64,000 bases of DNA from Blautia sp. (GTDB taxonomy: Bacteria; Bacillota; Clostridia; Lachnospirales; Lachnospiraceae). The stretch lies in assembly GCA_029257805.1 (NCBI GenBank), contig JARIAR010000031.1, forward strand, positions 62,001-126,000. The letters run 5' to 3'. Both the position numbers and the translations under genes were made by a program. Shown piece after piece: positions 511 to 59,493 of the stretch (position 1 is its first letter; the number at the start of each line of letters is the position of its first letter). The notes below the pieces were generated by a model that worked only from the letters and a program-made list of their open reading frames with translations, had not been told where the DNA came from and did no database searches.

Positions 511-546
511 TCTGGCGATATTACATAAATGAAGGAGGACAATTTC

Positions 547-1935
547 ATGCCAATTAGTGAAAATATGGTACAGGAAATTGTACAGGAAGTCATGGCAAAG
601 ATGCAGATTGCCGATGCTCCCTCCGGAAAACATGGGATTTTTAAAGAAATGAACGATGCAATTGAAGCTGCAAAAAAAGCGGAATTGATCGTGAAGAAAA
701 TGTCCATGGACCAGAGAGAAAAGATTATTACATGTATCCGCAGAAAAATCAAAGAAAATGCAGAAATTCTGGCACGCATGGCTGTTGATGAAACTGGAAT
801 GGGAAATGTTGGAGATAAGATCCTGAAACATCATCTTGTAGCAGATAAGACTCCTGGAACAGAAGATATTACAACAACCGCATGGTCTGGCGACAGAGGA
901 CTGACTTTGATTGAAATGGGACCGTTTGGTGTAATTGGAGCGATCACTCCATGTACAAACCCAAGCGAAACCGTACTTTGCAATACAATCGGTATGCTGG
1001 CAGGTGGAAACACAGTTGTGTTTAATCCGCATCCGGCAGCAATTAAAACATCTATTTATGCAATCAATCTGCTGAATGAAGCTTCTCTGGAAGCTGGCGG
1101 ACCGGACAATATTGCAGTAACAGTAGAGAAACCAACACTTGAAACAAGCAATACTATGATGAAACATAAAGACATTCCGTTAATTGCTGCAACAGGTGGT
1201 CCTGGCGTTGTAACTGCTGTTCTGTCTTCTGGAAAACGTGGAATCGGTGCAGGTGCAGGTAATCCTCCGGCACTTGTAGATGAAACAGCAGATATTCGTA
1301 AAGCAGCACAGGATATTGTGAACGGATGTACATTCGATAACAATCTTCCATGTATTGCTGAAAAAGAAATCGTTGCGGTATCTTCTATCGTGGATGAACT
1401 GATGCATTATCTTGTAACAGAGAATGATTGTTATCTGGCATCCAAAGAAGAGCAGGACAAACTGACAGAAGTAGTTCTGGCAGGTGGAAAACTGAACCGT
1501 AAATGTGTAGGACGTGATGCAAGAACCTTGCTTTCCATGATCGGGGTAAATGTTCCGGCCAATATACGTTGTATCGTATTTGAAGGACCGAAGGAACATC
1601 CGCTGATCAGCACAGAGCTTATGATGCCGATCCTTGGTGTTGTAAGAGCAAGAGATTTTGATGATGCAGTAGAACAGTCTGTATGGCTGGAACATGGAAA
1701 TCGTCATTCTGCACATATTCATTCTAAAAACATTGACAATATTACAAAATACGCAAAAGCAATTGACACCGCAATTCTTGTGAAAAATGCACCATCTTAT
1801 GCAGCACTTGGATTTGGTGGAGAAGGCTACTGTACATTTACAATTGCAAGCCGTACAGGAGAGGGTCTCACCAGCGCAAGTACATTCACAAAGAGAAGAC
1901 GTTGCGTAATGTCTGACAGCCTTTGCATTCGTTAA
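547..1935 (+). CDS. pduP: CoA-acylating aldehyde dehydrogenase (PduP/EutE family) with N-terminal encapsulation peptide
   Basis: ATG 547 preceded by GAAGGAGG; MPISENMVQEIVQEVMAKMQ tail; 'GPFGVIGAITPCTNPSETVLCNTIGMLAGGNTVVFNPHP' motif. Confidence 0.92.
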   Translation: MPISENMVQEIVQEVMAKMQIADAPSGKHGIFKEMNDAIEAAKKAELIVKKMSMDQREKIITCIRRKIKENAEILARMAVDETGMGNVGDKILKHHLVADKTPGTEDITTTAWSGDRGLTLIEMGPFGVIGAITPCTNPSETVLCNTIGMLAGGNTVVFNPHPAAIKTSIYAINLLNEASLEAGGPDNIAVTVEKPTLETSNTMMKHKDIPLIAATGGPGVVTAVLSSGKRGIGAGAGNPPALVDETADIRKAAQDIVNGCTFDNNLPCIAEKEIVAVSSIVDELMHYLVTENDCYLASKEEQDKLTEVVLAGGKLNRKCVGRDARTLLSMIGVNVPANIRCIVFEGPKEHPLISTELMMPILGVVRARDFDDAVEQSVWLEHGNRHSAHIHSKNIDNITKYAKAIDTAILVKNAPSYAALGFGGEGYCTFTIASRTGEGLTSASTFTKRRRCVMSDSLCIR

Positions 1936-1953
1936 TCAGGAGGAGAGAAGAAC

Positions 1954-3192
1954 ATGGATATGAATAACGTTAATATTGAAGAAATCGTAAAACAGGTTCT
2001 CTCCGGCATGACAGGAAACGCTCCGGCAGAAGCAGCTCCGGCAACAGCACCAGTAGCAGCTCCGGCAGCAGGCAGCGCAATTCCGAAGACAGCCAGAGTA
2101 GCAATGCTGACATCACTGGAACATTATGAAATTAAAGAATTTCCAATTCCTGCTTTAGGGGATGACGATATTCTTGTAAAAGTAGAAGGATGTGGTATCT
2201 GTGGTACAGATGCACATGAATTCAAAAGAGATCCATTTGGCCTGATGCCGGTAGCACTTGGACATGAAGGTACAGGTGAGATCGTTGCAATGGGTAAAAA
2301 TGTAAAAGTAGATACAGCTGGAAAACCAGTTAAAGTTGGTGATAAAGTTGTTACATGTATGATTTTCAAGGATGATCCGGAAATCACTATGTTTGACTTA
2401 AATAAGAAAAACGTCGGCGGTGCTGATGTATACGGACTTCTTCCGGATGATGATATTCATCTGAACGGATGGTTTTCCGATTACATTTTCATCAGAGGCG
2501 GACAGTTTGGCTCTACATTCTTTAATGTAAGCGATTTGGATCTGGATTCCAGAATTCTGATCGAGCCATGTGCAGTTCTGATCCATGCTGTAGAAAGAGC
2601 AAAAACAACAGGAATTCTTCGTTTCAACAGCAGAGTTGTTGTACAGGGATGCGGACCGATCGGTCTTATCTGTATTGCAGTTCTTCGTACTATGGGTATC
2701 GAGAATATCTGCGCAGTAGACGGCGAAGAAAAACGCCTTGATTTTGCTAAGAAAATGGGCGCAACTGTAACTGTAAACTTTAAAGATCACAAAGGAATCG
2801 AAGCACTTGCAGAAGGTGTGAAAGATGCTTTTGGCGGACATCTTGCAGATTTTGCATTCCAGTGTACTGGTTCTCCGGTTGCACATGCAAATATCTATAA
2901 ATTTATCCGCAATGGCGGTGGCCTTTGTGAACTTGGTTTCTTCATCAATGGTGGAGATGCAACCATCAACCCACACTTTGATATTTGTTCTAAAGAGATC
3001 ACAACAGTAGGCTCCTGGGTATATACTCTGAGAGATTACGTAACAACTTTTGATTTCTTAAAGAGAGCAAAAGGAATTGGTCTGCCAATGTCTGAACTGA
3101 TCACAGACAGATTCCCGTTAGAGCAGATCAACGAAGCACATCAGACAAACCTTGCTATGACTGGTTTGAAGATTGCAATCATTAATAAATAA
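1954..3192 (+). CDS. Zn-dependent medium-chain alcohol dehydrogenase with N-terminal encapsulation peptide and Ala/Pro linker
   Basis: MDMNNVNIEEIVKQVLSGM... then APAEAAPATAPVAAPAAG linker; 'GCGICGTDAHEF', 'GHEGTGEIVAMGKNV'. Confidence 0.9.
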   Translation: MDMNNVNIEEIVKQVLSGMTGNAPAEAAPATAPVAAPAAGSAIPKTARVAMLTSLEHYEIKEFPIPALGDDDILVKVEGCGICGTDAHEFKRDPFGLMPVALGHEGTGEIVAMGKNVKVDTAGKPVKVGDKVVTCMIFKDDPEITMFDLNKKNVGGADVYGLLPDDDIHLNGWFSDYIFIRGGQFGSTFFNVSDLDLDSRILIEPCAVLIHAVERAKTTGILRFNSRVVVQGCGPIGLICIAVLRTMGIENICAVDGEEKRLDFAKKMGATVTVNFKDHKGIEALAEGVKDAFGGHLADFAFQCTGSPVAHANIYKFIRNGGGLCELGFFINGGDATINPHFDICSKEITTVGSWVYTLRDYVTTFDFLKRAKGIGLPMSELITDRFPLEQINEAHQTNLAMTGLKIAIINK

Positions 3193-3216
3193 TCCTCACT
3201 GTAAAGGAGAAAGAAA

Positions 3217-3531
3217 ATGGCAGAAGCTGTGGGAATTTTGGAAGTATTTGGGCTGACAACAGCCTTCGTAGCAGGCGATGCCGGATGTAAGGCAGCAAAT
3301 GTCCGCCTGGAAGTGTTTGACAAGAATAAGCCGGCCAACGCAGACAGCCTGCCAGTACCGCTCCTTGTCTGCATTAAATACCGCGGAAGTGTTGCGGATG
3401 TAACTGCAGCAGTGGAAGCCGGTATGGAAGTTGCAAACAGCATGACCGGCGTGGTACAACATTATGTAATTCCGAATCCCGATGAGGGAACGGAAAAAAT
3501 GCTGAAGATCAGCGCCCTGGATAAGCAATAA
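3217..3531 (+). CDS. BMC-domain (BMC-H) shell protein with extended loop
   Basis: AVGILEVFGLTTAFVAGDAGCKAANV ... GSVADVTAAVEAG ... HYVIPNPDE; RBS AAAGGAGA. Confidence 0.9.
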   Translation: MAEAVGILEVFGLTTAFVAGDAGCKAANVRLEVFDKNKPANADSLPVPLLVCIKYRGSVADVTAAVEAGMEVANSMTGVVQHYVIPNPDEGTEKMLKISALDKQ

Positions 3532-3608
3532 TAGTTGCACATTCAGGATATATCGTTTAAAATGTAAAAAAAATCATTAGTATATATCAAATTCAGGAGG
3601 AATTAATC

Positions 3609-3884
3609 ATGGCACAGGAAGCATTAGGAATGGTAGAAACCAGAGGACTTACAGCTGCAATCGAAGCAGCAGATGCAATGACAAAAGCAGCAGAAGTTGC
3701 ATTAGTAGGAACAGAAAAAATCGGTTCCGGTCTTGTAACAGTTATGGTTCGTGGCGATGTAGGTGCTGTTAAAGCAGCTGTAGAAAGCGGAAGTGCAGCA
3801 GCATCCAGACTTGGAGAACTTGTTGCAACACACGTAATTCCGAGACCACACACAGACGTAGAAAAAATTCTGCCGACTATCTAA
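3609..3884 (+). CDS. BMC-H shell protein (PduA/PduJ-like)
   Basis: [24 protein letters not shown]...[25 protein letters not shown]...HVIPRPH; RBS AGGAGG. Confidence 0.95.
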
Positions 3885-3898
3885 TAGAAAAATAAAGA

Positions 3899-3926
3899 GT
3901 TCCTGAATCCGTATGGATTTGGGAAC
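3899..3926 (+). other. Intercistronic RNA hairpin (no U-run)
   Basis: GTTCCTGAATCC-GTAT-GGATTTGGGAAC, 12 pairs including two G.U. Confidence 0.6.
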
Positions 3927-3958
3927 ATGGCGAATAAGAGAAATAAAGGAGTTCGCTC

Positions 3959-4255
3959 ATGAGTAAATCATATGGTTTTATTGAAATCACAGGTGTAGTT
4001 GCGGCGATGGACGCTCTGGACATTATGTGCAAAACTGCAGACGTTGAGCTGGCGTCATGGGAACGTAAGCTGGGCGGACGACTGGTGACCATTATTATAG
4101 AAGGCGATGTGGCGGCTGTAACAGAGGCAGTGGAAGCGGCAGTAGCAGGTTCCCTGAAAAAGCCTGTTTCTCATGCAGTCATTGCCCGCCCTCACGAAGA
4201 AATCGTCAAGATGGTGGAATTAAGCGCAAGTCGATGGAAGAAGAAAAACAAATAG
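3959..4255 (+). CDS. BMC-H shell protein
   Basis: MSKSYGFIEITGVVAAMDALDIMCKTADVELASWERKLGGRLVTIIIEGDVAAVTEAVEAA; RBS AAAGGAG. Confidence 0.93.
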   Translation: MSKSYGFIEITGVVAAMDALDIMCKTADVELASWERKLGGRLVTIIIEGDVAAVTEAVEAAVAGSLKKPVSHAVIARPHEEIVKMVELSASRWKKKNK

Positions 4256-4266
4256 GGGGATGAAAT

Positions 4267-4680
4267 ATGGCTGAAGAGAAAAAAACAACAGCAGGAAACA
4301 GAGCCCCTAAAAAGGCTGCCGCTCCTAGAAGAACGGCAAAGAAAAATGCAGAGACAAAGGTTCGTGTTGAAAGTTCAACAACTCACAAGGAGGAAAAAAT
4401 CATGACACAGGAAGCATTAGGAATGGTAGAAACCAGAGGACTTACAGCTGCAATCGAAGCAGCAGATCAGATGTGCAAGGCTGCTAACGTAGCATTAGTA
4501 GGAACAGAAAAAATCGGTTCCGGTCTTGTAACAGTTATGGTTCGTGGTGATGTAGGTGCTGTTAAATCTGCTGTAGAAAGCGGAAGCGCAGCAGCATCCA
4601 GACTTGGAGAGCTGGTAGCAACACATGTAATTCCAAGACCACATACAGATGTAGAAAAAATTCTTCCGGTTCTTAAATAA
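4267..4680 (+). CDS. BMC-H shell protein with 45-residue K/R/A-rich N-terminal extension; internal start at 4402 gives a canonical BMC-H
   Basis: Two in-frame starts, each with its own SD (AGGGGGA before 4267; AAGGAGG before 4402); BMC domain nearly identical to the 3609-3884 product. Confidence 0.88.
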
Positions 4681-4696
4681 GAGATTTTCCGGTAGA

Positions 4697-4722
4697 GGAT
4701 TTTCTTGTAAAAAGAAAATTCC
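4697..4722 (+). other. Intercistronic RNA hairpin
   Basis: GGATTTTCTT-GTAAA-AAGAAAATTCC with one bulge. Confidence 0.5.
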
Positions 4723-4740
4723 AAGAAAGCAGGTGTAGTT

Positions 4741-5382
4741 TTGGAAACAAATAATATTGAACGGATTACTAGAATGGTAATTCAGGCAATTAATGAAAGT
4801 GAAGATAAGGGCAGCGGTTTTGTTGTACCGATCGGAGTTTCCGCAAGACATATTCATCTGACACAGGAACATGTAGAAGCATTATTCGGAGAAGGCTATC
4901 AGTTGACAAAGAAAAAAGAACTGATGGGTGGACAGTTTGCATCAAATGAAACGGTTACCATAGTAGGTCTTAAATTACGGGCAATTGAAAATGTGCGTAT
5001 TCTTGGACCAGTGCGTAAGGCATCACAGGTTGAGGTATCTGCTACAGATGCAATTAAACTTGGTATGAAAGTGCCGATTCGTGAATCAGGAGATGTGGCA
5101 GGAAGTGCTCCTATAGCCATTGTAGGACCTAAGGGTGCTATTTATCTTCAAGAGGGATGTATTGTGGCAATGCGTCATATTCATATGTCTCCTAAAGATG
5201 CTCAGGCAGCAGGTGTTAAAGATGGTGATATTGTTTCCGTGAAAGCGGATAACGAGCGCGGAACAATTTTCAATCATGTTAAGATCCGTGTAGATGACAG
5301 CTTTACTCTGGAGATGCATATTGACACAGATGAAGCAAATGCAGCAAAGATTGCCACAGGCAATACCGTAACAATCATTTAA
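4741..5382 (+). CDS. pduL: Phosphate propanoyltransferase PduL, TTG start, N-terminal encapsulation-peptide-like helix
   Basis: IPVGVSARHIHLT-type motif 'VPIGVSARHIHLTQEHVEALFG', 'CIVAMRHIHMSPKDA'. Confidence 0.95.
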   Translation: METNNIERITRMVIQAINESEDKGSGFVVPIGVSARHIHLTQEHVEALFGEGYQLTKKKELMGGQFASNETVTIVGLKLRAIENVRILGPVRKASQVEVSATDAIKLGMKVPIRESGDVAGSAPIAIVGPKGAIYLQEGCIVAMRHIHMSPKDAQAAGVKDGDIVSVKADNERGTIFNHVKIRVDDSFTLEMHIDTDEANAAKIATGNTVTII

Positions 5383-5416
5383 TAAAATATAAGAAATCCT
5401 CCTGAAGTGGATATTT

Positions 5417-5446
5417 CCAGCCGGCGGCGAAAGTCGCCGGCACTGG
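5417..5446 (+). other. Stable intercistronic hairpin with GAAA tetraloop between pduL and the vertex-protein gene
   Basis: CCAGCCGGCGGC-GAAA-GTCGCCGGC(ac)TGG. Confidence 0.7.
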
Positions 5447-5472
5447 AGGGTTTAAGAAACGCGGAGGCTCAT

Positions 5473-5739
5473 ATGATTGTAGGCAAGGTTGTTGGAAGCG
5501 TGGTTTCCACGCGGAAAAGCGAAAAGTTAATAGGAAATAAGTTCATGATTGTTGAGCCAGTACATCATATGAAAGCGGATTTAAGCCAGATTGTTGCAAT
5601 CGACATGATCGGTGCAGGAATCGGAGAATATGTATTGGTGGCACAAGGAAGCGCAGCAAGAATTGGCTGCGGCGTAGAAACAGCGCCGGTAGATGCGGCA
5701 ATAGTCGGCATCGTTGATGATGGCGCAGGATTGGAGTAA
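5473..5739 (+). CDS. pduN: BMC vertex (pentamer) protein, EutN/CcmL/PduN family
   Basis: MIVGKVVGSVVSTRKSEKLIGNKFMIVEPV ... AIDMIGAGIGEYVLVAQGSAAR; SD GCGGAGG before ATG 5473; the longer ORF call from GTG 5407 lacks an SD. Confidence 0.93.
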   Translation: MIVGKVVGSVVSTRKSEKLIGNKFMIVEPVHHMKADLSQIVAIDMIGAGIGEYVLVAQGSAARIGCGVETAPVDAAIVGIVDDGAGLE

Positions 5740-5743
5740 CGCC

Positions 5744-7072
5744 ATGGAAATCAAAGAATTACAGAAAATTATACAGGAGAATGGTGTAGTAGGTGCCGGT
5801 GGTGCCGGTTTCCCTACATATGTAAAGATAAGCGATCAGGCAAATACCATTCTTATGAACTGTGCAGAGTGCGAGCCTTTACTGAAATTACACAGACAGT
5901 TATTAGAAAAGCACGCATATGAAATTATGAAAACATTCAATATGGTAGCAGACACAGTAGGTGCTTCTGAAGCCATTATTGGAATTAAAAAATCTTATGT
6001 ACAGACAATAGCAGCATTACAGCAGCATATTGAGGAATTTCCTAAAATGCGCATTCATCTCCTTGAAGAAGTATACCCAATGGGTGATGAAGTTGTTTTG
6101 ATTTACGAAGCAACCGGTAGAGTGGTAAGACCGGGCGGGCTCCCTATTGAACAGGGTGTTGCTGTATTTAATGTTGAAACAATTTACAATGTTTATAGAG
6201 CAGTAGAAAAACAGAAACCGGTAACAGATAAATATGTATCGGTTGTTGCAGAAGTAAGCAATCCGGTTACTGTTCGTGTTCCTCTGGGATGTACAATGGA
6301 TGATGTTGTAGCTCAGGCTGGAAATGTAACAGTTAAAGATCCGGTTTATTTTATTGGTGGTCCTATGATGGGACGTATCGGAAGTGGTTCTGAGCCAGTT
6401 ACAAAAACAACAAATGCGATTTTGGTACTTCCAAAAGACCATATTATTGTAGCGAAAAAACAGAGAACTTCTTCTATAGATTTAAAAAGAGCAGCATCTA
6501 TTTGCTGCCAGTGTAATACTTGTACAGACCTTTGTCCAAGAAATAATCTGGGACATCCAATTGACCCGGCTCGTTTCATGAGAGCGGCAGCAAATCAGGA
6601 TTTCCGCGATCTGAATCCATACATTGATGCAAGTTTCTGCAGTTCCTGCGGTGTTTGTGAAATGTATTCCTGTCCACAGAGTCTGGCACCAAGAAGCCTT
6701 CTGGCAGATATGAAGGGTGGACTTCGTAAAGCCGGTATAAGACCACCTCAGGGTGTACAGCCGGTTCCTGTAACACAGTCCAGAGAATATCGTAAAGTTC
6801 CGGAAGAACGTCTGATGGCACGTCTGGGGCTGACAAAATATGATAAAGATGCACCTATGGATGAAACATTAGTGGCAGTTCCGAAGGTTACAATCCTTTT
6901 AAGCCAGCATATTGGTGCACCGGCTAAAGCAATTGTGAAAGTTGGGGATGAAGTTACACGCGGTCAGATGATTGCAGAACCTGCTCAGGGTCTGAGTGTG
7001 GGTATTCACGCAACTATCTGTGGTAAGGTAACAGAAGTAACAGATCGCCATATCGTAATTGCAGCAAAGTAG
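5744..7072 (+). CDS. pduS: PduS-type RnfC-like electron-transfer protein
   Basis: MEIKELQKIIQENGVVGAGGAGFPTYVK; two [4Fe-4S] motifs CCQCNTCTDLCP and CSSCGVCEMYSCP. Confidence 0.93.
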   Translation: MEIKELQKIIQENGVVGAGGAGFPTYVKISDQANTILMNCAECEPLLKLHRQLLEKHAYEIMKTFNMVADTVGASEAIIGIKKSYVQTIAALQQHIEEFPKMRIHLLEEVYPMGDEVVLIYEATGRVVRPGGLPIEQGVAVFNVETIYNVYRAVEKQKPVTDKYVSVVAEVSNPVTVRVPLGCTMDDVVAQAGNVTVKDPVYFIGGPMMGRIGSGSEPVTKTTNAILVLPKDHIIVAKKQRTSSIDLKRAASICCQCNTCTDLCPRNNLGHPIDPARFMRAAANQDFRDLNPYIDASFCSSCGVCEMYSCPQSLAPRSLLADMKGGLRKAGIRPPQGVQPVPVTQSREYRKVPEERLMARLGLTKYDKDAPMDETLVAVPKVTILLSQHIGAPAKAIVKVGDEVTRGQMIAEPAQGLSVGIHATICGKVTEVTDRHIVIAAK

Positions 7073-7088
7073 AAAGGACGTGCAGAAC

Positions 7089-7637
7089 ATGAGTAAAGCA
7101 ATCGGAATGATTGAATTTAAAACTACAGCCACCGGTATTACTGCAGCAGATGCCATGGTCAAGACATCCGAGGTAGAAATCGTGGAGGCTCAGACCGTTT
7201 GTCCGGGTAAATATATTGCAATTATTACCGGAGATTTAAGTGCGGTAAAAGCTGCAGTAGATGCGGCTGTAACAACATATGAGGAGCAGTGCATCGACAG
7301 TTTTGTACTTGGAAATCCGCATGAATCTATTTTCCCAGCTATTTATGGAACTACTCAGGTAGAAGAAATCAGTGCGTTGGGAATTCTTGAAACATACGAT
7401 GCAGCTTCTATTATCGAAGCTGCAGATCAGGCTGCTAAGACAGCTATCGTAGATTTAATTGAACTTCGTATTGCCAAAGGTATGTGCGGAAAGTCTTATA
7501 TGCTGCTGACTGGTGAAGTTTCTGCAGTGGAAGCTTCTATCGAGAGAGCAAAGGAGCTTGTTGCGTCTAAGGGTATGTATCTGGATTCTTCTGTTATTGC
7601 CCATCCGGACAGACGTATGATTGACAGCATCCTTTAA
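7089..7637 (+). CDS. pduT: Tandem BMC-domain (BMC-T) shell protein, PduT-like
   Basis: Two BMC domains; Cys at residue 38 (QTVCPGK) as expected for the PduT Fe-S pore; second-domain GMCGKS. Confidence 0.88.
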   Translation: MSKAIGMIEFKTTATGITAADAMVKTSEVEIVEAQTVCPGKYIAIITGDLSAVKAAVDAAVTTYEEQCIDSFVLGNPHESIFPAIYGTTQVEEISALGILETYDAASIIEAADQAAKTAIVDLIELRIAKGMCGKSYMLLTGEVSAVEASIERAKELVASKGMYLDSSVIAHPDRRMIDSIL

Positions 7638-7670
7638 TAAAATAGGAACTTTTGAAGGAGGCAGGATATC

Positions 7671-8435
7671 ATGCTTGCATTAGAAAGACGAAATCTTATC
7701 CTTGAAAAACTTCAGGAAGAAAAAAGAGTTGTAGTCAGTGAGTTGAGCCAGCTTTATGGTGTTTCGGAAGAAACGATCCGCCGGGATCTTGATAAACTGG
7801 AAAAAGAGGGATTTGCCATTAAAAGCTATGGCGGCGCAGTGATTAATGAGGATTTCAGTATTGATCTGCCTTTTAATGTGCGTAAAAATCAAAATGTAGC
7901 CGGGAAACAGAAAATGGCAGAAATTGCAGCGTCCCTTGTAAATGAGGGCGATCATATTTTCCTGGATGCAAGTACTACAGCAGTTTTTGTGGCAAAAGCT
8001 TTGAAAGAAAGAGAACGGCTTACAGTAATCACAAATTCCATGGAAATTTTATTGGAACTTTCTGATGTTTCCGGATGGAATATTATTTCCACCGGCGGGG
8101 TAATGAAAGACGGGTATCTTGCTTTTTTAGGTTCCAGAACAGAGGAAGCAATTCGTTCCTATTATGTGGATAAGGCTATTTTTTCCTGTAAAGCACTGGA
8201 TAGAGAATGGGGTTTAATGGAATCTCAGGAATCGTTTGCCTATGCTAAAAAAGCCATGATGGCTTCAGGAAAAAAGAAAATTCTGGTAATTGACAGTACA
8301 AAATTTGATCAAACCGCATTTTCCGTTGGAGGAAGTTTGCGGGATATAGATGTGGTAGTGACAGACAGAAAGCCTTCAGACAGGTGGCTGAAGTATTTTG
8401 AAGAACTTGGTATGGAGTGTAAGTACACTGTCTGA
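7671..8435 (+). CDS. DeoR-family transcriptional regulator
   Basis: MLALERRNLILEKLQEEKRVVVSELSQLYGVSEETIRRDLDKLEKEG ... SYGGAV; SD GGAGG. Confidence 0.92.
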   Translation: MLALERRNLILEKLQEEKRVVVSELSQLYGVSEETIRRDLDKLEKEGFAIKSYGGAVINEDFSIDLPFNVRKNQNVAGKQKMAEIAASLVNEGDHIFLDASTTAVFVAKALKERERLTVITNSMEILLELSDVSGWNIISTGGVMKDGYLAFLGSRTEEAIRSYYVDKAIFSCKALDREWGLMESQESFAYAKKAMMASGKKKILVIDSTKFDQTAFSVGGSLRDIDVVVTDRKPSDRWLKYFEELGMECKYTV

Positions 8436-8459: not shown

Positions 8460-9611
8460 ATGAATACCTTTGAAATGAAAACTGCCATTCATTTTGGCAG
8501 TAATGCTCTGGACAGATTGAAAGAAATTCCGTACAAAAGGGTTCTTGTAATTACAGACCCGTTTGTTGTGCAGAGCAAAATGGTCGATTTAATTACTGCA
8601 CCGCTTGAAAGCGCAGGAATTCAGTATGATATTTTCTGTGATGTGGTTCCGGATGCTCCGGTGGAAAAAATTGCTACAGGTGTAAAAAAATTCCTGCAGT
8701 ATCAGCCGGAAGCAATTGTTGCAGTAGGTGGTGGATCTGCGATTGACTCTTCAAAAGCAATTCGTGAATTTGCATTGAAGATCAATAATTATGGAAAAGT
8801 AGGACTGATTGCAGTACCTACTACAAGTGGAACCGGTTCAGAAGTAACATCGTTTGCAGTTGTAAATGATACAGAAGCTCATGTGAAATATCCATTGGTT
8901 TCTGACAGCCTGACACCGGATGAAGCGATTCTCGATGCAGAACTTGTAAAGAGTGTACCTCCTGCAATTACAGCAGATACTGGTATGGATGTATTTACAC
9001 ATGCCCTGGAATCTTATGTAAGCACAGCTCATAACGAATTCTCTTCCGCACTTGCAGAAAAAGCCATGGAAATTTGTGGTGTATTTTTGTTACGTGCATA
9101 CTTAGATGGAAGTGATATGCATGCGCGTCAGAAAATGCATGTAGCATCCTGCCTGGCTGGATTATCTTTTAATACAGCAGGACTTGGTATTACTCACAGT
9201 ATGGCGCATCAGTTAGGTGCAATGTTCCATATTCCTCATGGACGTGCCAATGCAATGCTTCTTCCGCACATTGTGGAATTTAATGCAGATATTAACAAGC
9301 ATAGCAGAAGTCAGAAAGAATATCTTCCGGCAGTGAAGAGATATGCAGATGTTGCACATATTCTTGGACTTAGCAATTACAATAAAGTAATGACGGTTCG
9401 TTCTCTTGTAAACTGGATTCAGTTTATGCAGAAGGAAATGAACATTCCGTTGACAATACAGGAACTTGGTACGATTACTCCGGATGCATATTTTGCTGCA
9501 ATTGATAAAATGGCAGATGCAGCCCTTGTGGATGCTTGCACAGCAAATAATCCGAGAGTTCCAACAAAGGAAGATATCATAAAAATATATACTAAATTGT
9601 GGTCCTTCTAA
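8460..9611 (+). CDS. pduQ: Iron-containing alcohol dehydrogenase, PduQ-like 1-propanol dehydrogenase
   Basis: AVGGGSAIDSSKAI, VPTTSGTGSEVTSFAVV, GITHSMAHQLGAMFHIPHG. Confidence 0.9.
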   Translation: MNTFEMKTAIHFGSNALDRLKEIPYKRVLVITDPFVVQSKMVDLITAPLESAGIQYDIFCDVVPDAPVEKIATGVKKFLQYQPEAIVAVGGGSAIDSSKAIREFALKINNYGKVGLIAVPTTSGTGSEVTSFAVVNDTEAHVKYPLVSDSLTPDEAILDAELVKSVPPAITADTGMDVFTHALESYVSTAHNEFSSALAEKAMEICGVFLLRAYLDGSDMHARQKMHVASCLAGLSFNTAGLGITHSMAHQLGAMFHIPHGRANAMLLPHIVEFNADINKHSRSQKEYLPAVKRYADVAHILGLSNYNKVMTVRSLVNWIQFMQKEMNIPLTIQELGTITPDAYFAAIDKMADAALVDACTANNPRVPTKEDIIKIYTKLWSF

Positions 9612-9620
9612 GATGTCAGG

Positions 9621-9649
9621 CAGCCCGGCAAATTCTGCCGGGCTGTTTT
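9621..9649 (+). terminator. Intrinsic terminator between pduQ and pduC
   Basis: CAGCCCGGCA-AATTC-TGCCGGGCTG-TTTTAT. Confidence 0.85.
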
Positions 9650-9662
9650 ATAAAAAGCGGAG

Positions 9663-9713
9663 CACTGGGAAAAGAATCTTACAAAAGCGGAATGCAGGTT
9701 TTTTTTTCCAGTG
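9663..9713 (+). other. Second stem-loop in the pduC 5' region
   Basis: CACTGGGAAAAGAA ... TTTTTTTTCCAGTG, 14 pairs including two G.U, about 23-nt loop. Confidence 0.5.
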
Positions 9714-9729
9714 ATAAAAGGTAGAAAAT

Positions 9730-11394
9730 ATGAAAAGATCAAAAAGAATAGAAGCTCTGGATCAGAGAGCGGTAAATAAAGATGGGTTTATAGATGAATG
9801 GCCGGAAATGGGATTTGTGGCGATGAAAAGCCCTTATGATCCCAGTCCGTCTGTTAAAGTAGAAAATGGCATTATCACAGAACTGGATGGAAAACAAAGA
9901 TCAGAATTTGATTTTATAGACCAGTTTATTGCAGATTATGCAATTCGTATTGACAGAACAGAAAAATTCATGCAGCTTCCATCTTTGGAGATTGCAAGAA
10001 AAATAGTAGATATTCATACATCCAGAAAAGAAATTTTGGAAATTGTTTCCGGTATTACACCTGCTAAAATGGTAGAAGTAATCAACTACCTCAATGTAGT
10101 GGAAATGATGATGGGTATGCAGAAAATGCGTGCCAGAAAAGTACCGGGCAATCAGGCGCATATTACGAACCTAAAAGATGATCCGGTACAGATAGCAGCA
10201 GATGCAGCAGAAGGGGCTCTTCGTGGATTTAGTGAAGAAGAAACCACAACCGGTGTTGCCAGATATGCGCCATTTAATGCAATTGCCCTGTTGATCGGCT
10301 CCCAGGTAGGACGAAAAGGGGTTCTTACCCAGTGTGCGGTAGAAGAGGCAACAGAACTGGAATTGGGAATACGTGGCCTTACCACATATGCGGAAACACT
10401 TTCTGTATATGGTACAGAAAAAGTTTTTGTAGACGGTGATGACACTCCGTATTCAAAGGCATTTTTAAATTCAGCTTATGCTTCCCGTGGATTAAAAGTA
10501 CGATTTACTTCCGGTTCCGGCTCTGAAGTACTGATGGGAAGCAGTGAAAAGAAGTCTATGCTTTATCTGGAGTGCAGATGTCTGTATGTAACAAAAGGTG
10601 CAGGCTCCCAGGGAATTCAGAATGGTTCTGTAAGTTGTATTGGTGTTACAGCCAGCGTTCCTTCCGGGATTCGTGAAGTAATTGGAGAGAACCTTGTAGC
10701 AGCACTTCTGGGATTAGAATGTGCATCTTCTAATGATCAGAGTTTTTCTAATTCAGATATGCGTCGTACAGCGAGAACCATGCTTCAGTTTATGCCTGGA
10801 ACAGATTTTATTTTTTCAGGATATGCAGCAGAGGCGAACTATGATAATATGTTTGCAGGATCTAATTTTGATGCAGAAGACTTTGATGACTATAATGTAT
10901 TGCAAAGAGATATGCAGGTAGATGGCGGTCTTCGTCCTGTGACAGAAGAAGAAGTGATCCGTGTGCGTCGGGAAGCCGGAAAAGCGGTACAGGCAGTATT
11001 TAAGTACCTGGGACTTACGGAAGTAACAGATGAGCAGGTAGAAGCTGTAACATATGCTCATGGAAGTAAGGATACATTAAAAAGAGATGTTGCTTCAGAT
11101 CTGATGGCAGCAGATGATCTGATGAAGCGTGGAATTACCGGAATTGATGTGGTAAAAGCTCTTGCAGAAAGCGGATTTACAGAGCTTGCAGAAAGTATTT
11201 TGAATATGCTGAAGCAAAGAGTGATTGGAGATTATATGCATACGGCTGCAATTCTGGATGAAAATTTCCAGGTGATGTCTGGTGTAAACACTCCAAATGA
11301 TTATATGGGACCTGGAACAGGATACCGTGTAACTGGAAAACGCTGGGAAGAAATTAAGGCAATTCCACATAGAATAAATGTAAATGAATTTTAG
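9730..11394 (+). CDS. pduC: B12-dependent diol dehydratase large subunit
   Basis: MKRSKRIEALDQRAVNKDGFIDEWPEMGFVAMKSPYDPSPS; ARKVPGNQAHITN; operon context. Confidence 0.96.
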   Translation: MKRSKRIEALDQRAVNKDGFIDEWPEMGFVAMKSPYDPSPSVKVENGIITELDGKQRSEFDFIDQFIADYAIRIDRTEKFMQLPSLEIARKIVDIHTSRKEILEIVSGITPAKMVEVINYLNVVEMMMGMQKMRARKVPGNQAHITNLKDDPVQIAADAAEGALRGFSEEETTTGVARYAPFNAIALLIGSQVGRKGVLTQCAVEEATELELGIRGLTTYAETLSVYGTEKVFVDGDDTPYSKAFLNSAYASRGLKVRFTSGSGSEVLMGSSEKKSMLYLECRCLYVTKGAGSQGIQNGSVSCIGVTASVPSGIREVIGENLVAALLGLECASSNDQSFSNSDMRRTARTMLQFMPGTDFIFSGYAAEANYDNMFAGSNFDAEDFDDYNVLQRDMQVDGGLRPVTEEEVIRVRREAGKAVQAVFKYLGLTEVTDEQVEAVTYAHGSKDTLKRDVASDLMAADDLMKRGITGIDVVKALAESGFTELAESILNMLKQRVIGDYMHTAAILDENFQVMSGVNTPNDYMGPGTGYRVTGKRWEEIKAIPHRINVNEF

Positions 11395-11405
11395 GAGGCT
11401 GTACA

Positions 11406-12077
11406 ATGGATAAGAATGAACTGATACAAGCCATTACCAAAGCGGTTTTGGAGCAGTTGCAGGGAAATCATGCACAGCCCCAAAACCAGGAAACATCTGG
11501 TGAGATTCTGACTGGCAGAACAAGAATGCGCCCTAAGCATTCCTATGCAGGAGCGCAGAAAGCTGCTCAGGGAACAGATCCAAAGGAAATTGTAATTGGA
11601 GTAGGTGCTGCTTTTCAGACGGAGATCCGTGCTACGATCTGCGGAATTCCGCTGGAAGATGTCCTTCAAAATGTACAGGCAGGTATTGAAGAAGAAGGAA
11701 TGACTTCAAGAGTTGTAAAAATCCTGGATACTTCAGACGTATGCTTTATGGCATTACAGGCAGCGAAACTTTCAGGTTCGGGAATTGGAATTGGCATTCA
11801 GTCAAAAGGAACAACGGTTATTCATCAGAAAGATCTGTATCCGTTGTCTAATCTGGAACTTTTCCCTCAGGCCCCACTGATGGATCTGGATACATATCGT
11901 AAAATCGGCAGAAATGCGGCGAAATATGTAAAAGGGGAAAAAGTAACACCAATAGAGTGTACCAATGACCCTATGGTACGTGCAAAATTCCAGGTAAAAG
12001 CAGCTTTGATGCACATTATTGAAACAGAGCAGCTGGATCCGGAAAAAGGCATGATTGTATGGGAGGGAGCAAGATGA
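11406..12077 (+). CDS. pduD: Diol dehydratase medium subunit with N-terminal encapsulation peptide
   Basis: MDKNELIQAITKAVLEQLQ; EIVIGVGAAFQTEIRATICGIPLEDVLQNV. Confidence 0.95.
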   Translation: MDKNELIQAITKAVLEQLQGNHAQPQNQETSGEILTGRTRMRPKHSYAGAQKAAQGTDPKEIVIGVGAAFQTEIRATICGIPLEDVLQNVQAGIEEEGMTSRVVKILDTSDVCFMALQAAKLSGSGIGIGIQSKGTTVIHQKDLYPLSNLELFPQAPLMDLDTYRKIGRNAAKYVKGEKVTPIECTNDPMVRAKFQVKAALMHIIETEQLDPEKGMIVWEGAR

Positions 12078-12469
12078 GTAATTATCCCTTAGGACAAAAT
12101 GAGGCAAGTAGCATCACATCCAAAACAGGAAAAAAGCTTTCTCAGATTACATTGGATGAGGTAAAGAAGGGAAGCGTAACAGCGGAAGATATTAAAATTT
12201 CTTCTGAAATGCTGAAGAAGCAGGGACAGGTTGCAAAAGAGGCAGACAATCCCCAGATGCAGGCAAATTTTGAACGTGCATCGGAGCTTGTAAATGTCCC
12301 GGATGATGTTATACTGAATATGTACAATAAACTGCGGCCAAATCGTTCTACAAAGAGAGAACTGCTTCTCATGGCCCAGGAGTTACTGGAAAAATACCAT
12401 GCCCCTAATTGTGCAAAACTCGTTTTAGAGGCAGCGGAAATTTATGAAAAAAGGGGAATTCTTCTTTGA
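12074..12469 (+). CDS. pduE: Diol dehydratase small subunit
   Basis: ATGA overlap with pduD stop; PDDVILNMYNKLRPNRSTKRELLLMAQELLEKYHAPNCAKLVLEAAEIYEKRGIL. Confidence 0.94.
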   Translation: MSNYPLGQNEASSITSKTGKKLSQITLDEVKKGSVTAEDIKISSEMLKKQGQVAKEADNPQMQANFERASELVNVPDDVILNMYNKLRPNRSTKRELLLMAQELLEKYHAPNCAKLVLEAAEIYEKRGILL

Positions 12470-14298
12470 AACTAATTGCTGGTGTTGATATAGGAAATTC
12501 CACAACTGAAGTATGTATAGGCGGCATTGAAGAAAACGGAAGATTCTGTTTTCTGTCAAGTGCATCCCGCATGACTACCGGGACAAAGGGAACCCTTCCC
12601 AATGTCCTGGGGATTAAAGCTGCACTGGAAGAGGCTTTGGATCAGATTCATAAGCCTCTTAGTGCACTTGATCTGGTGCGTTTAAATGAAGCAGCCCCTG
12701 TAATTGGTGACACTGCAATGGAGACGATTACAGAGACGATCATTACGGAGTCTTCCATGATTGGGCACAATCCATCTACTCCTGCAGGTGCAGGGGAAGC
12801 AGTGGGGGAACTTATTTTTCTGGAAAATATCTGGAAAGGGGTTTCGGGAACACCGTATATCGTAGTTGCTTCAAATAAATTTTCTTATGAAGAGATCGCT
12901 GCAAGATTAAATCAATATATTCCGGAGTTGGATGTAAAGGGAATAATCTTGCAGGCAGATGAGGCGGTTTTAGTAGAAAATCGTTTGAATAAGCAGGTTC
13001 CTATTGTGGATGAAGTACGTCATATTCATAAAATACCTCAGGGAAAAATGGCTGCTATTGAAGTTGCGCTTCCTGGGACAAGTATCCGAATGTTATCTAA
13101 TCCGTATGGAATCGCTACTTTATTAGGGCTTGATGCAGAAGAAACGAAATCTGTTACCCCTATTGCAAAAAGTCTTGTTGGAAAGAGAAGTGCAGTAGTC
13201 ATTCGGACCCCTCATGGAAATATGAGAGAAAATATTCTTCCTGCAGGAGAAATTACTTTTCATGGTACAAGAGAGCTTTGTGTAAGTATTGATGCCGGAG
13301 CAGACGGGATTATGGAAAAGCTTGAAGAGGCAGGGGAAATTTACGATATTGACGGCCAGCTCAATACAAATGTAGGGAATATGCTTTCCAGAATCAAGAC
13401 AAGTATGGAAGACGTAACTCAAAGACAGAATGGAGATATTCGCATTACAGATATCCTTGCAGTGGATACACTGGCACCTGTAGAAATTTCCGGTTCTCTT
13501 GCAGGGGAAACATGTATGGAAAAAGCAGTAGGGATTGCCGCTATGGTAAAAACCCAGCATCTTCCCATGCAGCAGATTGCGGAAAAACTGGAGCAGGAAC
13601 TTTCTGTAAAAGCAGTAGTTGCAGGAGTGGAAGCTGTAATGGCTTCTATCGGTTCTATGACAACTCCGGGAACAAAACTTCCTCTTGCTGTTTTAGATAT
13701 GGGAGGTGGTTCTACAGATGCTGCAATTCTGGAGCCGGATGGAACGGTGCGTACGACACATCAGGCAGGAGCGGGAGAACTTGTGTCTATGCTGATTCAG
13801 ACCGAATTAGGTTTGAAAAGCCGTGTAACAGCTGAGCAGATTAAGAAATATCCTATGGGAAAAGTAGAAAGCCTTTTCCATATGCGTCTGGAAAATGGTG
13901 CCATGCAATTTTTTGAAGAGTCCATTGATCCAAGATATTACGGACATGTGGTACTTCTTGCACCAGGAGAAATGTTAAAAATAGAAGAAGACATACCAAT
14001 GGAGCGGATTCTTGAGGTGCGTCGGGAAGCTAAGAAAAAAGTGTTTGTGCGTAACGCGATCCGTGCTCTGCGTACAGTTGCACCGGATCATAATTTGCGA
14101 AAGATACCGAATGTAGTGCTGGTAGGTGGTTCTGCTGAAGATTTCGAAATACCGGAAATGTTGATGGAAGCTCTTTCTGAGTATAGGATTGTTTGCGGAA
14201 GAGGAAATATCAGAGGCTGCGAAGGACCAAGAAATGCAGTGGCTACAGGACTTTTACTCTCATATCTGGGAAACCGGAAATCGGAGAATACGGTTTAA
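12466..14298 (+). CDS. pduG: Diol dehydratase reactivase large subunit, TTG start
   Basis: MKLIAGVDIGNSTTEVCIG; PLAVLDMGGGSTDAAIL. Confidence 0.94.
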   Translation: MKLIAGVDIGNSTTEVCIGGIEENGRFCFLSSASRMTTGTKGTLPNVLGIKAALEEALDQIHKPLSALDLVRLNEAAPVIGDTAMETITETIITESSMIGHNPSTPAGAGEAVGELIFLENIWKGVSGTPYIVVASNKFSYEEIAARLNQYIPELDVKGIILQADEAVLVENRLNKQVPIVDEVRHIHKIPQGKMAAIEVALPGTSIRMLSNPYGIATLLGLDAEETKSVTPIAKSLVGKRSAVVIRTPHGNMRENILPAGEITFHGTRELCVSIDAGADGIMEKLEEAGEIYDIDGQLNTNVGNMLSRIKTSMEDVTQRQNGDIRITDILAVDTLAPVEISGSLAGETCMEKAVGIAAMVKTQHLPMQQIAEKLEQELSVKAVVAGVEAVMASIGSMTTPGTKLPLAVLDMGGGSTDAAILEPDGTVRTTHQAGAGELVSMLIQTELGLKSRVTAEQIKKYPMGKVESLFHMRLENGAMQFFEESIDPRYYGHVVLLAPGEMLKIEEDIPMERILEVRREAKKKVFVRNAIRALRTVAPDHNLRKIPNVVLVGGSAEDFEIPEMLMEALSEYRIVCGRGNIRGCEGPRNAVATGLLLSYLGNRKSENTV

Positions 14299-14325
14299 AA
14301 TAGAGATAAAGGAGCAGGGGCAGCT

Positions 14326-14676
14326 ATGGTGGTAAATAAGCCAACGATCATGATATACAGTCATCAGCCAGATGAAGATTTTCTTCGGGAAATTTGTGCA
14401 GGGATAGAAGAAGAAGGTGTATTGTATCAAATTTCTTCAAGAGAAGGAGATTTGGATACTTTGGCCTTTGAGGCTGCAAAAGCGTCCATGCTGGGCTGCG
14501 GTATTGGGATTTCGGGGATTCGGATTGCCATGCAGATGCAGCGCCTGCCAAAAGGAAAAAATGTATTTGAAATTTGTAATCCAAGATTCTGGCAATGTCG
14601 GAATCTTGGGGCCAATAGTGCCAGAGCTATTAAAAAGATGCCTTTTAAACCAGTCACAGGAGATGAGAAACTATGA
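14326..14676 (+). CDS. pduH: Diol dehydratase reactivase small subunit
   Basis: Position between pduG and pduO; SMLGCGIGISGIRIAMQMQRLPKGKNVFE. Confidence 0.88.
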   Translation: MVVNKPTIMIYSHQPDEDFLREICAGIEEEGVLYQISSREGDLDTLAFEAAKASMLGCGIGISGIRIAMQMQRLPKGKNVFEICNPRFWQCRNLGANSARAIKKMPFKPVTGDEKL

Positions 14677-15686
14677 ATATTTACACAAAAAACGGAGATA
14701 AAGGAACCACAGATCTTATCCGTACAAAAAATGTCTCCAAGTCAGATGACAGGATTGGGCTTGTAGGAACCATTGACGAGCTTACCAGCCATCTTGGCGT
14801 GGTAAAAACCATGATTCACGATGGAGATGTACTCCAAAATCTGGAGAATATCCAGGAAACATTAATTAAGGTCATGGCAGGTGTGGCAGATCCTTTTAAT
14901 CGGGAATACCATATCAGTGATGACAAAACAGAATTTTTGGAAAAAGAAATTGATCGTATGGAAAGTCTTTTTGAGCGGCCTAAAAAATTTATTCTTCCCG
15001 GGGGAACTCGTCTTTCAGCAGAAATGGATGTAGCGCGCACGGTAGCAAGAAGAGCGGAGCGTGCACTTGCAGCTGTTAGTGTAAAATTTGGAGCTGATGC
15101 AGGAACAAAGAAATACATGAACCGTCTTGCAGACTATCTTTATGTACTGGCCAGATATACAGATGCAACTTCTGATGTTAATGCATCCGAGAAAGGAAAT
15201 ACCATGGAACAAAATCAAAGTGCTGCCGTAAGTGAGGCAGTTGTTCAGGAAGTTATGAAACGCATGGGAATTCAGGGAAAGATTACGCTTGATGCAGCAA
15301 AGCGTCTTATTGAGAAAATTGAAAAAGAAGCAGTCCGTCAGGGAAAGAAGGCTGTAATTGCAGTATGTGGACCAGACGGGAATCCGATTGCAGTTCATGT
15401 AATGGACGGTGCTTTCCTTGTAAGCTTTGATGTAGCCTTAAAAAAAGCATATACATCTGTTGCAGTTAAAATGTCTACCATGGAATTATCTGCATTAGCA
15501 CAGCCTGGACAGACATTCTATGGTGTGGATAAGATGGATGGTGGAAAAATTGTGATTTTTGGTGGTGGTGTTCCTTTGAAAGCAGGAGAAACCATTATTG
15601 GAGGACTGGGAATCAGTGGAGGAACCGGAGAAGAAGATCATGCGCTTGCAGAATATGGTCTTTCCGTGTTGAATGAAGTACTGTAA
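14673..15686 (+). CDS. pduO: PduO: ATP:cob(I)alamin adenosyltransferase fused to a PduO C-terminal/GlcC-HbpS-like domain
   Basis: MNIYTKNGDKGTTDLIRTKNVSKSDDRIGLVGTIDELTSHLG; ILPGGTRLSAEMDVARTVARRAER; C-terminal IAVHVMDGAFLVSFDVALKKAYTS. Confidence 0.93.
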   Translation: MNIYTKNGDKGTTDLIRTKNVSKSDDRIGLVGTIDELTSHLGVVKTMIHDGDVLQNLENIQETLIKVMAGVADPFNREYHISDDKTEFLEKEIDRMESLFERPKKFILPGGTRLSAEMDVARTVARRAERALAAVSVKFGADAGTKKYMNRLADYLYVLARYTDATSDVNASEKGNTMEQNQSAAVSEAVVQEVMKRMGIQGKITLDAAKRLIEKIEKEAVRQGKKAVIAVCGPDGNPIAVHVMDGAFLVSFDVALKKAYTSVAVKMSTMELSALAQPGQTFYGVDKMDGGKIVIFGGGVPLKAGETIIGGLGISGGTGEEDHALAEYGLSVLNEVL

Positions 15687-15805: not shown

Positions 15806-15960
15806 AGCATATTAAATACATATATCTTAAATTTCTTGTACAAAAGAATATGCTCCAAAGGCATGAACATAGCCAGTATGCGGATACTGGAAAAAGAAAA
15901 ACAAAAGTGCTGTCGTTTTGATGATTAAAAAAATCATAAAACGGCAGCGCTTTTGTTTTG
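15806..15960 (+). ncRNA. Candidate structured small RNA (three hairpins, the last an intrinsic terminator)
   Basis: AGCATATT/AATATGCT; CCAGTAT-GCGG-ATACTGG; terminator stem 15897-15960; no ORF. Confidence 0.35.
15897..15960. terminator. Bidirectional intrinsic terminator
   Basis: AAAACAAAAGTGCTGTCGTTTTGATGATT ... AATCATAAAACGGCAGCGCTTTTGTTTT between convergent genes. Confidence 0.8.
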
Positions 15961-56901: not shown

Positions 56902-57779
56902 AATTAAAAGATGTGATGTATACTTACAGTGCGGGAACAGCATATGAAATTCATGCATTAAAGGATATAAATCTGAAGATACCGGATGGGCAGTTTATAG
57001 GGGTGATCGGGCATACAGGAAGTGGAAAATCTACATTGATCCAGCACTTGAACGCATTGATCCAGCCTACATCCGGAAAAATTCTTTATAATGGAGAAGA
57101 TATCTGGGAAGAAAATTATAACAGAAGAGCACTTCGAAGCCAGGTCGGACTTGTATTTCAGTATCCGGAACATCAGCTTTTTGAAAGCGATGTACTTTCT
57201 GATGTGTGTTTTGGCCCTATGAATCAGGGACTTACAAGAGAAGAAGCGGAGAAAGAAGCGAAAAAAGCGCTGCAGCAGGTTGGATTTAAAGAAAAAAATT
57301 ACGGAAAATCTCCTTTTGAACTTTCCGGCGGACAGAAAAAACGTGTTGCCATTGCAGGAGTTCTTGCAATGAATCCTAAGATTCTGATTTTAGATGAGCC
57401 AACAGCAGGACTTGATCCAAAAGGACGTGATGATATTTTGGATCAGATTGCACTTCTTCACAAAGAAAGAGGAATTACAATTATTTTGGTTTCTCATAGT
57501 ATGGAGGATATTGCAAAATACGTGGAGCGTTTAATTGTCATGAATAAAGGGCAGGTTGCTTTTGACGATGCACCGAAAAGCGTTTTTTCCCATTATAAAG
57601 AATTAGAAGCTATGGGGCTGGCTGCCCCTCAGATTACGTATATTATGAATGATCTGAAGAGAAAAGGCCTTGTAGATCATGCAGATGCTACTACTGTGGA
57701 GGAAGCAAAAGAATGTATTCTTTCTGCACTTCGGCGTATTGGATCCCCTCTTCTCAAGGAGGTCAGAGAAAATGATTAG
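56892..57779 (+). CDS. ecfA2: Energy-coupling factor transporter ATPase 2
   Basis: [48 protein letters not shown]. Confidence 0.95.
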
Positions 57780-58575
57780 AGATATTACACTTGGCCAGTT
57801 TTATCCGGCAGATTCTGTTCTTCACAGACTGGATCCCCGTACAAAATTTCTTGGAACAATGGCATTTATTATTTCTGTGTTTGTGTTCCACACCTTTCCG
57901 GGATATGCAGTAGCGACCCTTTTTCTGGCAGGGATGATCATACTTTCCAAAGTTCCTGTGAAGTTTATGTTTAAAGGTTTGAAAGCAATTTTTGTAATTC
58001 TTATGGTTACGGTATTGTTTAATGTGCTTCTTACTCCTGGGGAAATCTTATGGAAATGGGGCTTTTTGAAAGTAACAAAAGAAGGGCTTATATTGGCGGG
58101 AAGAATGGCAATCCGCCTGACGTATCTTGTGATCGGTTCTTCCATTATGACACTTACTACCACTCCGAATCAGCTTACAGACGGGCTGGAACGTTTGCTT
58201 CGTCCTCTTAATAAAATACATGTGCCAGTGCATGAAATTGCCATGATGATGTCTATTGCTCTCCGGTTTATTCCCATTCTTCTGGAGGAAACAGATAAGA
58301 TCATGAAAGCACAGATTGCAAGGGGTGCTGATTTTGAAAACGGAAATATTATCCAGAAAGCGAAAAATATGGTTCCTCTTCTTGTGCCGTTGTTTATTTC
58401 CGCATTTCGCCGTGCAAATGATCTGGCAATGGCCATGGAGGCACGCTGCTATCATGGCGGGGACAATCGTACACAGATGAAACCGTTACATTATGAAAAG
58501 CGGGATTATCTTGCATATGGAACGATTGTTTTTTATCTTCTGATAGCAGTTGTTTTCCGGGTAATCGGAATATAA
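57772..58575 (+). CDS. ecfT: Energy-coupling factor transporter transmembrane protein EcfT
   Basis: [39 protein letters not shown]-type 'AQIARGADFENGN', AMEARCY. Confidence 0.94.
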   Translation: MIRDITLGQFYPADSVLHRLDPRTKFLGTMAFIISVFVFHTFPGYAVATLFLAGMIILSKVPVKFMFKGLKAIFVILMVTVLFNVLLTPGEILWKWGFLKVTKEGLILAGRMAIRLTYLVIGSSIMTLTTTPNQLTDGLERLLRPLNKIHVPVHEIAMMMSIALRFIPILLEETDKIMKAQIARGADFENGNIIQKAKNMVPLLVPLFISAFRRANDLAMAMEARCYHGGDNRTQMKPLHYEKRDYLAYGTIVFYLLIAVVFRVIGI

Positions 58576-58583
58576 AAGGAAAG

Positions 58584-58611
58584 ACTCCTGTCCCTGGTGG
58601 CAGGAGTTTTG
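58584..58611 (+). terminator. Terminator-like hairpin after ecfT
   Basis: ACTCCTG-tccctggtgg-CAGGAGTTTTGT. Confidence 0.6.
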
Positions 58612-58651
58612 TCTAATAAAAAATATAGTTAACTCAGGAATGGAGGTTGTT

Positions 58652-59392
58652 ATGAAACGAGTAGGTCTTGTTGTTGCTTATGACGGAACAAATTATTGTG
58701 GATGGCAGACACAGCCAAATGGAATTACAGTACAGGGAGTATTAAATGAAACTTTGTCTGATCTTTTGGGAGAGGAGATTGAGACGATTGGTGCCAGCCG
58801 TACAGATGCAGGTGTTCATGCCCTTGGTAATGTTGCTGTTTTTGATACAGAAACCAGAATTCCGGGAGAGAAAATTTCCTATGCCTTAAACCAGCGGCTT
58901 CCAGAGGATATACGCATTCAGCTTTCGGAGGAAGTGGAACCGGATTTCCATCCACGCTACTGCGACAGTGAAAAAACATACGAATATAGAATTTTAAATA
59001 GAAAATTTCCGGTACCTACAGAGCGGCTTTATACATATTTTTACCATTACAAATTAGATGTAGATAAAATGCGAGAAGCAACGTCGTATTTAATTGGGAA
59101 GCATGATTTTGCCAGTTTCTGTGGTGCAAAAGCCCAGGTGAAAACAACCGTACGTACCATTACCTCCATGGATGTTTGGCGTGATGGGGATCTTGTAACC
59201 ATTCGTGTTACGGGAACGGGATTTCTTTATAATATGGTTCGTATCCTTGCAGGAACTCTTATTGAAGTGGGAAATGGACAGTATAAGCCTGAACATGTAA
59301 AGACCATTCTGGAGGCATGCGACAGAGAAAAAGCCGGTCCAACGGCACCAGCTCAGGGGCTTACCCTTATGGGAATTGAGTTTTTTGATTAA
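58652..59392 (+). CDS. truA: tRNA pseudouridine(38-40) synthase
   Basis: LVVAYDGTNYCGWQTQPNGITVQGVL; GASRTDAGVHALGNVAVF. Confidence 0.97.
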   Translation: MKRVGLVVAYDGTNYCGWQTQPNGITVQGVLNETLSDLLGEEIETIGASRTDAGVHALGNVAVFDTETRIPGEKISYALNQRLPEDIRIQLSEEVEPDFHPRYCDSEKTYEYRILNRKFPVPTERLYTYFYHYKLDVDKMREATSYLIGKHDFASFCGAKAQVKTTVRTITSMDVWRDGDLVTIRVTGTGFLYNMVRILAGTLIEVGNGQYKPEHVKTILEACDREKAGPTAPAQGLTLMGIEFFD

Positions 59393-59414
59393 AATGAATA
59401 TTAAGAATAAAGGA

Positions 59415-59451: not shown

Positions 59452-59493
59452 GTATATTTCTGGTATAGTATTTGAAAAGAAAGAAAAAAAACT

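Follow-up and report, generated by a model that had tools for sequence, protein, structure and literature searches.

The window, the 64,000 nucleotides of a Blautia sp. contig (JARIAR010000031.1, bases 62001-126000) that were analysed, covers part of a microcompartment operon of ~20 kb. The features in and around the gap between pduQ and pduC, in window coordinates, were:

529..8435, + strand: upstream GRM5-type genes (PduP, lactaldehyde reductase-like, BMC shell proteins, PduL, PduS, PduT, DeoR regulator)
8460..9611, + strand: pduQ, iron-containing alcohol dehydrogenase (Pfam Fe-ADH), the last gene 5' of the gap
9621..9645, + strand: hairpin 1, core stem of a predicted intrinsic terminator, CAGCCCGGCA-AATTC-TGCCGGGCTG (fold z -4.6; score +23.8)
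9646..9651, + strand: U tract TTTTAT, from its sequence short and typical of leaky internal terminators (PMC9045158)
9652..9662, + strand: AAAAAGCGGAG block (local alignments, 0/200 shuffles equally good)
9663..9713, + strand: hairpin 2, a 14-bp stem with an A-rich 5' arm, a U-rich 3' arm and a 23-nt apical part (z -3.5)
9716..9722, + strand: AAAAGGT, region of the pduC ribosome-binding site, unpaired in the predicted fold
9730-11394: pduC, the first gene 3' of the gap
9730..14676, + strand: pduCDEGH, B12-dependent diol dehydratase subunits and reactivase (Pfam, NCBIfam; PDB relatives 1iwp and 1dio)
14673..15686, + strand: pduO, cobalamin adenosyltransferase with an HbpS-like domain, adjoining pduQ in cassette-free loci
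15907..15950, + strand: end-of-operon terminator, our comparison standard (score +11.3)

The gap measured 118 bp, with the end of pduQ at 9611 and the start of pduC at 9730, in agreement with the earlier note on this DNA. Among the upstream genes, the BMC shell protein at 4267-4680 carried an N-terminal extension of ~45 residues, with a high content of Lys, Ala and Arg, ahead of a BMC domain whose start is nearly identical to that of the protein at 3609-3884.

Left of the window we found an 841-aa glycyl-radical enzyme and its activase (L144:7386-10712, contig 57385-60711), followed by a BMC-domain protein and an EutP-like protein. In sequence, the solved structure nearest to the glycyl-radical enzyme was 5i2a, the diol dehydratase of Roseburia inulinivorans. 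Since a glycyl-radical diol dehydratase heads the operon, PduCDEGH, encoded between pduQ and pduO, is a second, B12-dependent dehydratase cassette.

As defined in PMC4207490 and PMC6325248, the GRM5 loci of Roseburia inulinivorans, Clostridium phytofermentans and Ruminococcus have in common with this one the glycyl-radical diol dehydratase with its activase, an aldolase (here class II, an Aldolase_II fragment at the window start), a lactaldehyde reductase (here a zinc-type dehydrogenase, 1954-3192), PduS and PduT homologues, a DeoR regulator and a DUF336/PduO-type protein. Unlike them, the Blautia locus has a complete B12-dependent PduCDEGH (9730-14676) between pduQ and pduO, whereas PMC4207490 states for GRM loci that there is no cobalamin-dependent dehydratase. 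Judged by its gene content, the locus is thus not a typical GRM5 locus; we describe it as GRM5-type, a fucose/rhamnose microcompartment operon to which a cassette has been added.

PduC was found in 33 of the 64 Blautia genomes and a match to the glycyl-radical enzyme (E <= 1e-100) in 42, ~30 of these with at least 78% identity. In 14 genomes, including this one, both were on one contig, ~13 kb apart. Neither internal terminators nor GRM5 loci are new, and the two dehydratases are known to occur together in the genomes of 28 Clostridiales (PMC9403272). In PMC6620236, a B12 dehydratase gene in the fucose/rhamnose locus of Clostridium methylpentosum is a single case, termed surprising. It is alike in that a PduCDE-type enzyme is encoded inside the locus. 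The passage on it does not place the two dehydratases there together, whereas many Blautia have both in one operon. A literature search, with most subscription papers outside its reach, returned no paper on both dehydratases in one Blautia operon.

A cobalamin riboswitch (96 bits, L144:5567-5754, + strand) lies 1.6 kb ahead of the glycyl-radical operon, 5' of a small cysteine-rich PF04071 gene (L144:6035-6322), and similar riboswitches were found near the glycyl-radical operon in several relatives. We rejected it as a controller of the operon: its own small gene and, by eye, two terminator-like hairpins intervene.

Hairpin 1 has a GC-rich core stem of 10 bp (9621-9630/9636-9645) with a 5-nt loop, lengthened by A-U and G-U pairs to 9618/9648. 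The predicted fold of 9612-9660 had a dG of -24.6 kcal/mol (z -4.6), and no shuffle was equally stable. Both parts of an intrinsic terminator were therefore present, a GC-rich stem stabler than chance and, directly 3' of it, a U-rich tract, which is short. With our own implementation of a d'Aubenton-Carafa-type function (threshold, score >0), hairpin 1 plus TTTTAT scored +23.8, bearing out the strong terminator claimed between pduQ and pduC. From the dinucleotide shuffles of the gap, 2/500 scored >0 and 0/500 reached 23.8; the terminator 3' of pduO in the same window stayed below hairpin 1. The score has moderate sensitivity, because only 27 of the 42 pduO 3' ends in relatives exceeded the threshold. 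A consensus terminator scan did not pick up hairpin 1; the likely reason is that the G-U extension of the stem takes in the U tract.

In the relatives, the gap 3' of pduQ spanned 11 to 178 bp, and its sequence was mostly unalignable. Scores >0 were obtained for this window, G313, G335, L057, L058 and G312, that is, 6/40 distinct pduQ 3' gaps (>=15 bp). Elsewhere in these operons 3/322 gaps scored >0, all from one lineage. The enrichment had a Fisher p of 8e-5, and of 1e-3 for gaps >=45 nt, kinship being ignored in both and the terminator being present on four tree tips only. Four further relatives (L055, L115, L060, G341) scored just under the threshold. An internal terminator-like hairpin (score 8-10) was also seen between a shell gene and pduL (BMC-PduL gap) in G314, G307 and G263 (L185-L187), which form one lineage.

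We considered whether the pduQ-pduC gap stands alone in its structure and dropped this, since the mean z was equal or lower (-2.3 to -2.6) for the BMC-PduL, PduT-DeoR and GRE-activase gaps, hardly any of which gave a terminator score. Their structures are possibly processing hairpins. With other operon gaps equally folded, it is the terminator score alone, not structure, that singles out the pduQ-pduC gap.

Hairpin 1 together with AAAAAGCGGAG aligned locally with L052 (the B. schinkii record), L054, L062, L057 and L058 (0 to 3/200 shuffles equally good). In six aligned terminator sequences, 97% of the cells were paired (4/500 shuffles equally good) and changes on both sides preserved pairing at 4/12 pairs, in a set of arms that is small, trimmed and registered by hand, and leans towards structure. 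Given the local alignments and this pairing, the terminator would seem to be of some age, preserved as a hairpin by certain lineages while others lost it.

The terminator is most likely evolutionarily labile. G336, the sister of G335, had a 48-bp gap without a terminator; G359, the sister of G312, had no terminator; G326 and G353 had 11-bp gaps. In G312 the terminator precedes pduO, in a species without pduC. A device dedicated to the dehydratase thus appears unlikely, because sister species lack the hairpin, some gaps are only 11 bp long, and pduO is preceded by a similar hairpin in a species lacking pduC.

The cassette itself comes and goes. In glycyl-radical operons without PduC, pduO lies directly 3' of pduQ. 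Among ~40 Blautia-type loci compared, eight of those on the tree lacked the cassette. On this tree (built from seven shared proteins of 38 loci and rooted at the midpoint; several nodes are weak, e.g., support of 0.19 for the G000-G339 pairing), the cassette-free loci nested inside the cassette-bearing ones, which takes at least three changes, or four if only losses are allowed. In Mobilisporobacter and Diplocloster, a PduCDEGHO block is found 5' of the glycyl-radical gene, an alternative order, so dual loci are broader than Blautia. A PduC-to-PduO block ahead of the glycyl-radical gene was seen in four loci (L094, L113, L114, L072), from these two genera and a Eubacteriales genome.

The pduO of the cassette-free loci (L146-L155) was more diverged, with a mean of 65% identity to cassette-bearing loci, the PduQ identity being 90-94%. 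Among cassette-bearing loci, pduO identity was 80%. By eye, the pduO DEL motif reads EEL in some cassette-free loci. The sequences look as if constraint fell after loss of the B12 enzyme.

Hairpin 2, also described in the earlier note, has arms at 9663-9676/9700-9713, giving the expected 14-bp stem, and its 3' end is 16 nt before the ATG; the fold of 9650-9729 had a z of -3.5. With its U run placed within the 3' arm, it does not qualify as a canonical terminator. The AAAAAGCGGAG block ahead of it is common to L052 and L054, immediately 3' of their terminators. In L052, where hairpin 2's position holds no hairpin, a matching GGCGGAG lies directly ahead of the start codon, 9 nt 5' of the pduC ATG, and the block could be an old ribosome-binding site that has been displaced. 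Of the pduC ribosome-binding site itself, the form common to most Blautia relatives is AAAGGTAGA. L054 (G334) likewise has a hairpin in hairpin 2's position, flanked by AAAAAAGCGGAG and the real ribosome-binding site, but its sequence (CGGGAG...CTCCCG) is unrelated. Besides this window, only L054 showed a second hairpin there. The 12-mer GCGGAATGCAGG of the apical part also occurs in L046, by local alignment.

Three origins or roles for this part of the gap were discarded. We found no other copies of hairpin 2 in the genome, and so set aside a repeat element or mobile insertion as its origin. The direct repeat AAAAGCGGA (9653-9661, 9683-9691) was considered as an operator; a 9-mer repeat arose in 117/3000 shuffles, and the pair is absent from relatives. 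A leader peptide over hairpin 2 (ATG CAG GTT ... TAG, ending at 9722) had, by eye, no good ribosome-binding spacing. Hairpin 2 would be just a leader or stability hairpin, which explains it weakly.

Upstream, the glycyl-radical enzyme is preceded by a perfect TTGACA-17-TATAAT (12/12), and a promoter of 11-12/12 was found at this place in 22/23 loci examined. Within the gap the best sigma-A-like match was 7/12, so the lack of a convincing promoter noticed earlier stands, and the gaps of relatives (>=30 bp) had no match above 9/12, in a search for sigma-A consensus sites within the gaps. These scores, and the 11-bp gaps of relatives, which leave no room, argue against a non-consensus independent promoter in the gap or at the end of pduQ, with the terminator simply closing the upstream unit. 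We regard this as unlikely, although adjacent units are commonly arranged in this way, a strong terminator first and then ~80 bp of leader containing a stable hairpin, and in other genera (L090, L094, L100) the PduC block lies, by eye, 3' of its own -10/-35-like sequences. The hairpins could instead act on mRNA processing or stability with little termination, hairpin 1 guarding the upstream 3' end and hairpin 2 the 5' end of a processed pduC mRNA. Two stable hairpins back-to-back with a free ribosome-binding site would suit this, and internal terminators of R. cellulolyticum also stabilise the upstream transcript (PMC9045158); but the U tract and the score fit termination, a second hairpin at that place is seen only here and in L054, and we hold processing as the main role to be very improbable.

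Regulated antitermination, proposed in the earlier note, would have a protein or small RNA allow polymerase past hairpin 1 in the presence of B12 or propanediol, so that the B12-dependent enzyme is made only when workable. This makes physiological sense where one operon encodes both a B12-independent and a B12-dependent dehydratase. Hairpin 2, and the L054 hairpin in the equal position, could be the binding site, and cobalamin riboswitches are in use elsewhere in the genome. Like eut loci under ANTAR antitermination, the locus has a terminator inside a microcompartment gene cluster. In the eut-type ANTAR motif, a pair of stem-loops carries hexaloops (A1, G4), and the second stem-loop overlaps with the terminator. 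Here, unlike in those loci, there were no paired hexaloops, as had been noticed before; one weak hexaloop only was seen, 3' of the terminator. In an Rfam scan of the gap no family reached the gathering score, and a relaxed E-value brought up nothing credible. No ANTAR protein was detected in this 94.7%-complete draft, where absence is not proof, and 59/64 Blautia genomes have one. The upstream fold showed no competing antiterminator, i.e., no alternative structure holding the 5' arm of hairpin 1. With no Rfam element, paired hexaloops, detected ANTAR protein or competing upstream structure, antitermination is unsupported; the hairpin's sequence and presence are also not conserved between sister species, and we consider this reading quite unlikely.

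Partial read-through, the other possibility raised in the earlier note, is the best-supported reading, given a predicted terminator and a gap without a promoter-like site. The feature is probably a leaky intrinsic terminator between the upstream GRM5 part and a dispensable B12 cassette plus PduO. Polymerase would start at the consensus promoter 5' of the glycyl-radical enzyme; some would halt after pduQ at 9646-9651, and the remainder would read through. PduCDEGH-PduO mRNA would then be less abundant than the upstream mRNA with the shell and glycyl-radical genes, and the hairpin end may stabilise the upstream transcript. The sequences themselves show the terminator, a gap lacking promoter-like sites, the upstream promoter, the gene order, the recurrent absence of cassette and terminator among relatives, and base pairing conserved where the terminator is kept; from these we infer termination itself, its efficiency, the unregulated nature of the read-through and the mere leader or stability role of hairpin 2. 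The earlier suggestion that the core-enzyme to shell ratio is set here did not hold, as the dehydratase at the operon head is the glycyl-radical enzyme, outside the window; what the terminator would set is the level of the B12 cassette and PduO relative to everything upstream. Since relatives are often without the terminator or the whole cassette, it probably just lowers a dispensable second enzyme rather than acting as a dedicated switch. Against a leaky terminator, one this strong could leave too little read-through for useful enzyme without another promoter or antitermination.

In Clostridia, internal terminators with long GC stems and low U content determine the ratios of transcripts, and their efficiencies range from 21 to 96% (PMC9045158). 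Those of the Ruminiclostridium cellulolyticum ABC-importer operons (PMC9045158) resemble the Blautia feature: a stem-loop between genes of one operon, with a long GC stem and a U-poor tract, and upstream genes in excess. There, termination was measured and the terminators lie 3' of substrate-binding-protein genes, whereas in Blautia the terminator is predicted, belongs to a microcompartment operon and varies between sister species.

Tentatively, we suggest a wider picture, possible rather than probable: in GRM5-type loci of Blautia, a B12-independent and a B12-dependent dehydratase would share one promoter and probably one shell, their ratio would be set by a removable, possibly conditional terminator, and cassette loss would leave pduO as a fast-changing remnant. 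If the terminator works as predicted, it would be a simple tuning of a B12-dependent versus a B12-independent enzyme for the same reaction, in one organelle of a fucose-degrading gut bacterium. Microcompartment loci without B12 enzymes retain B12-related genes, a puzzle raised in PMC4207490. That the B12 cassette was lost repeatedly while pduO stayed makes this puzzle testable and, if true, the pduO remnant would explain the presence of PduO in microcompartment loci without B12 enzymes.
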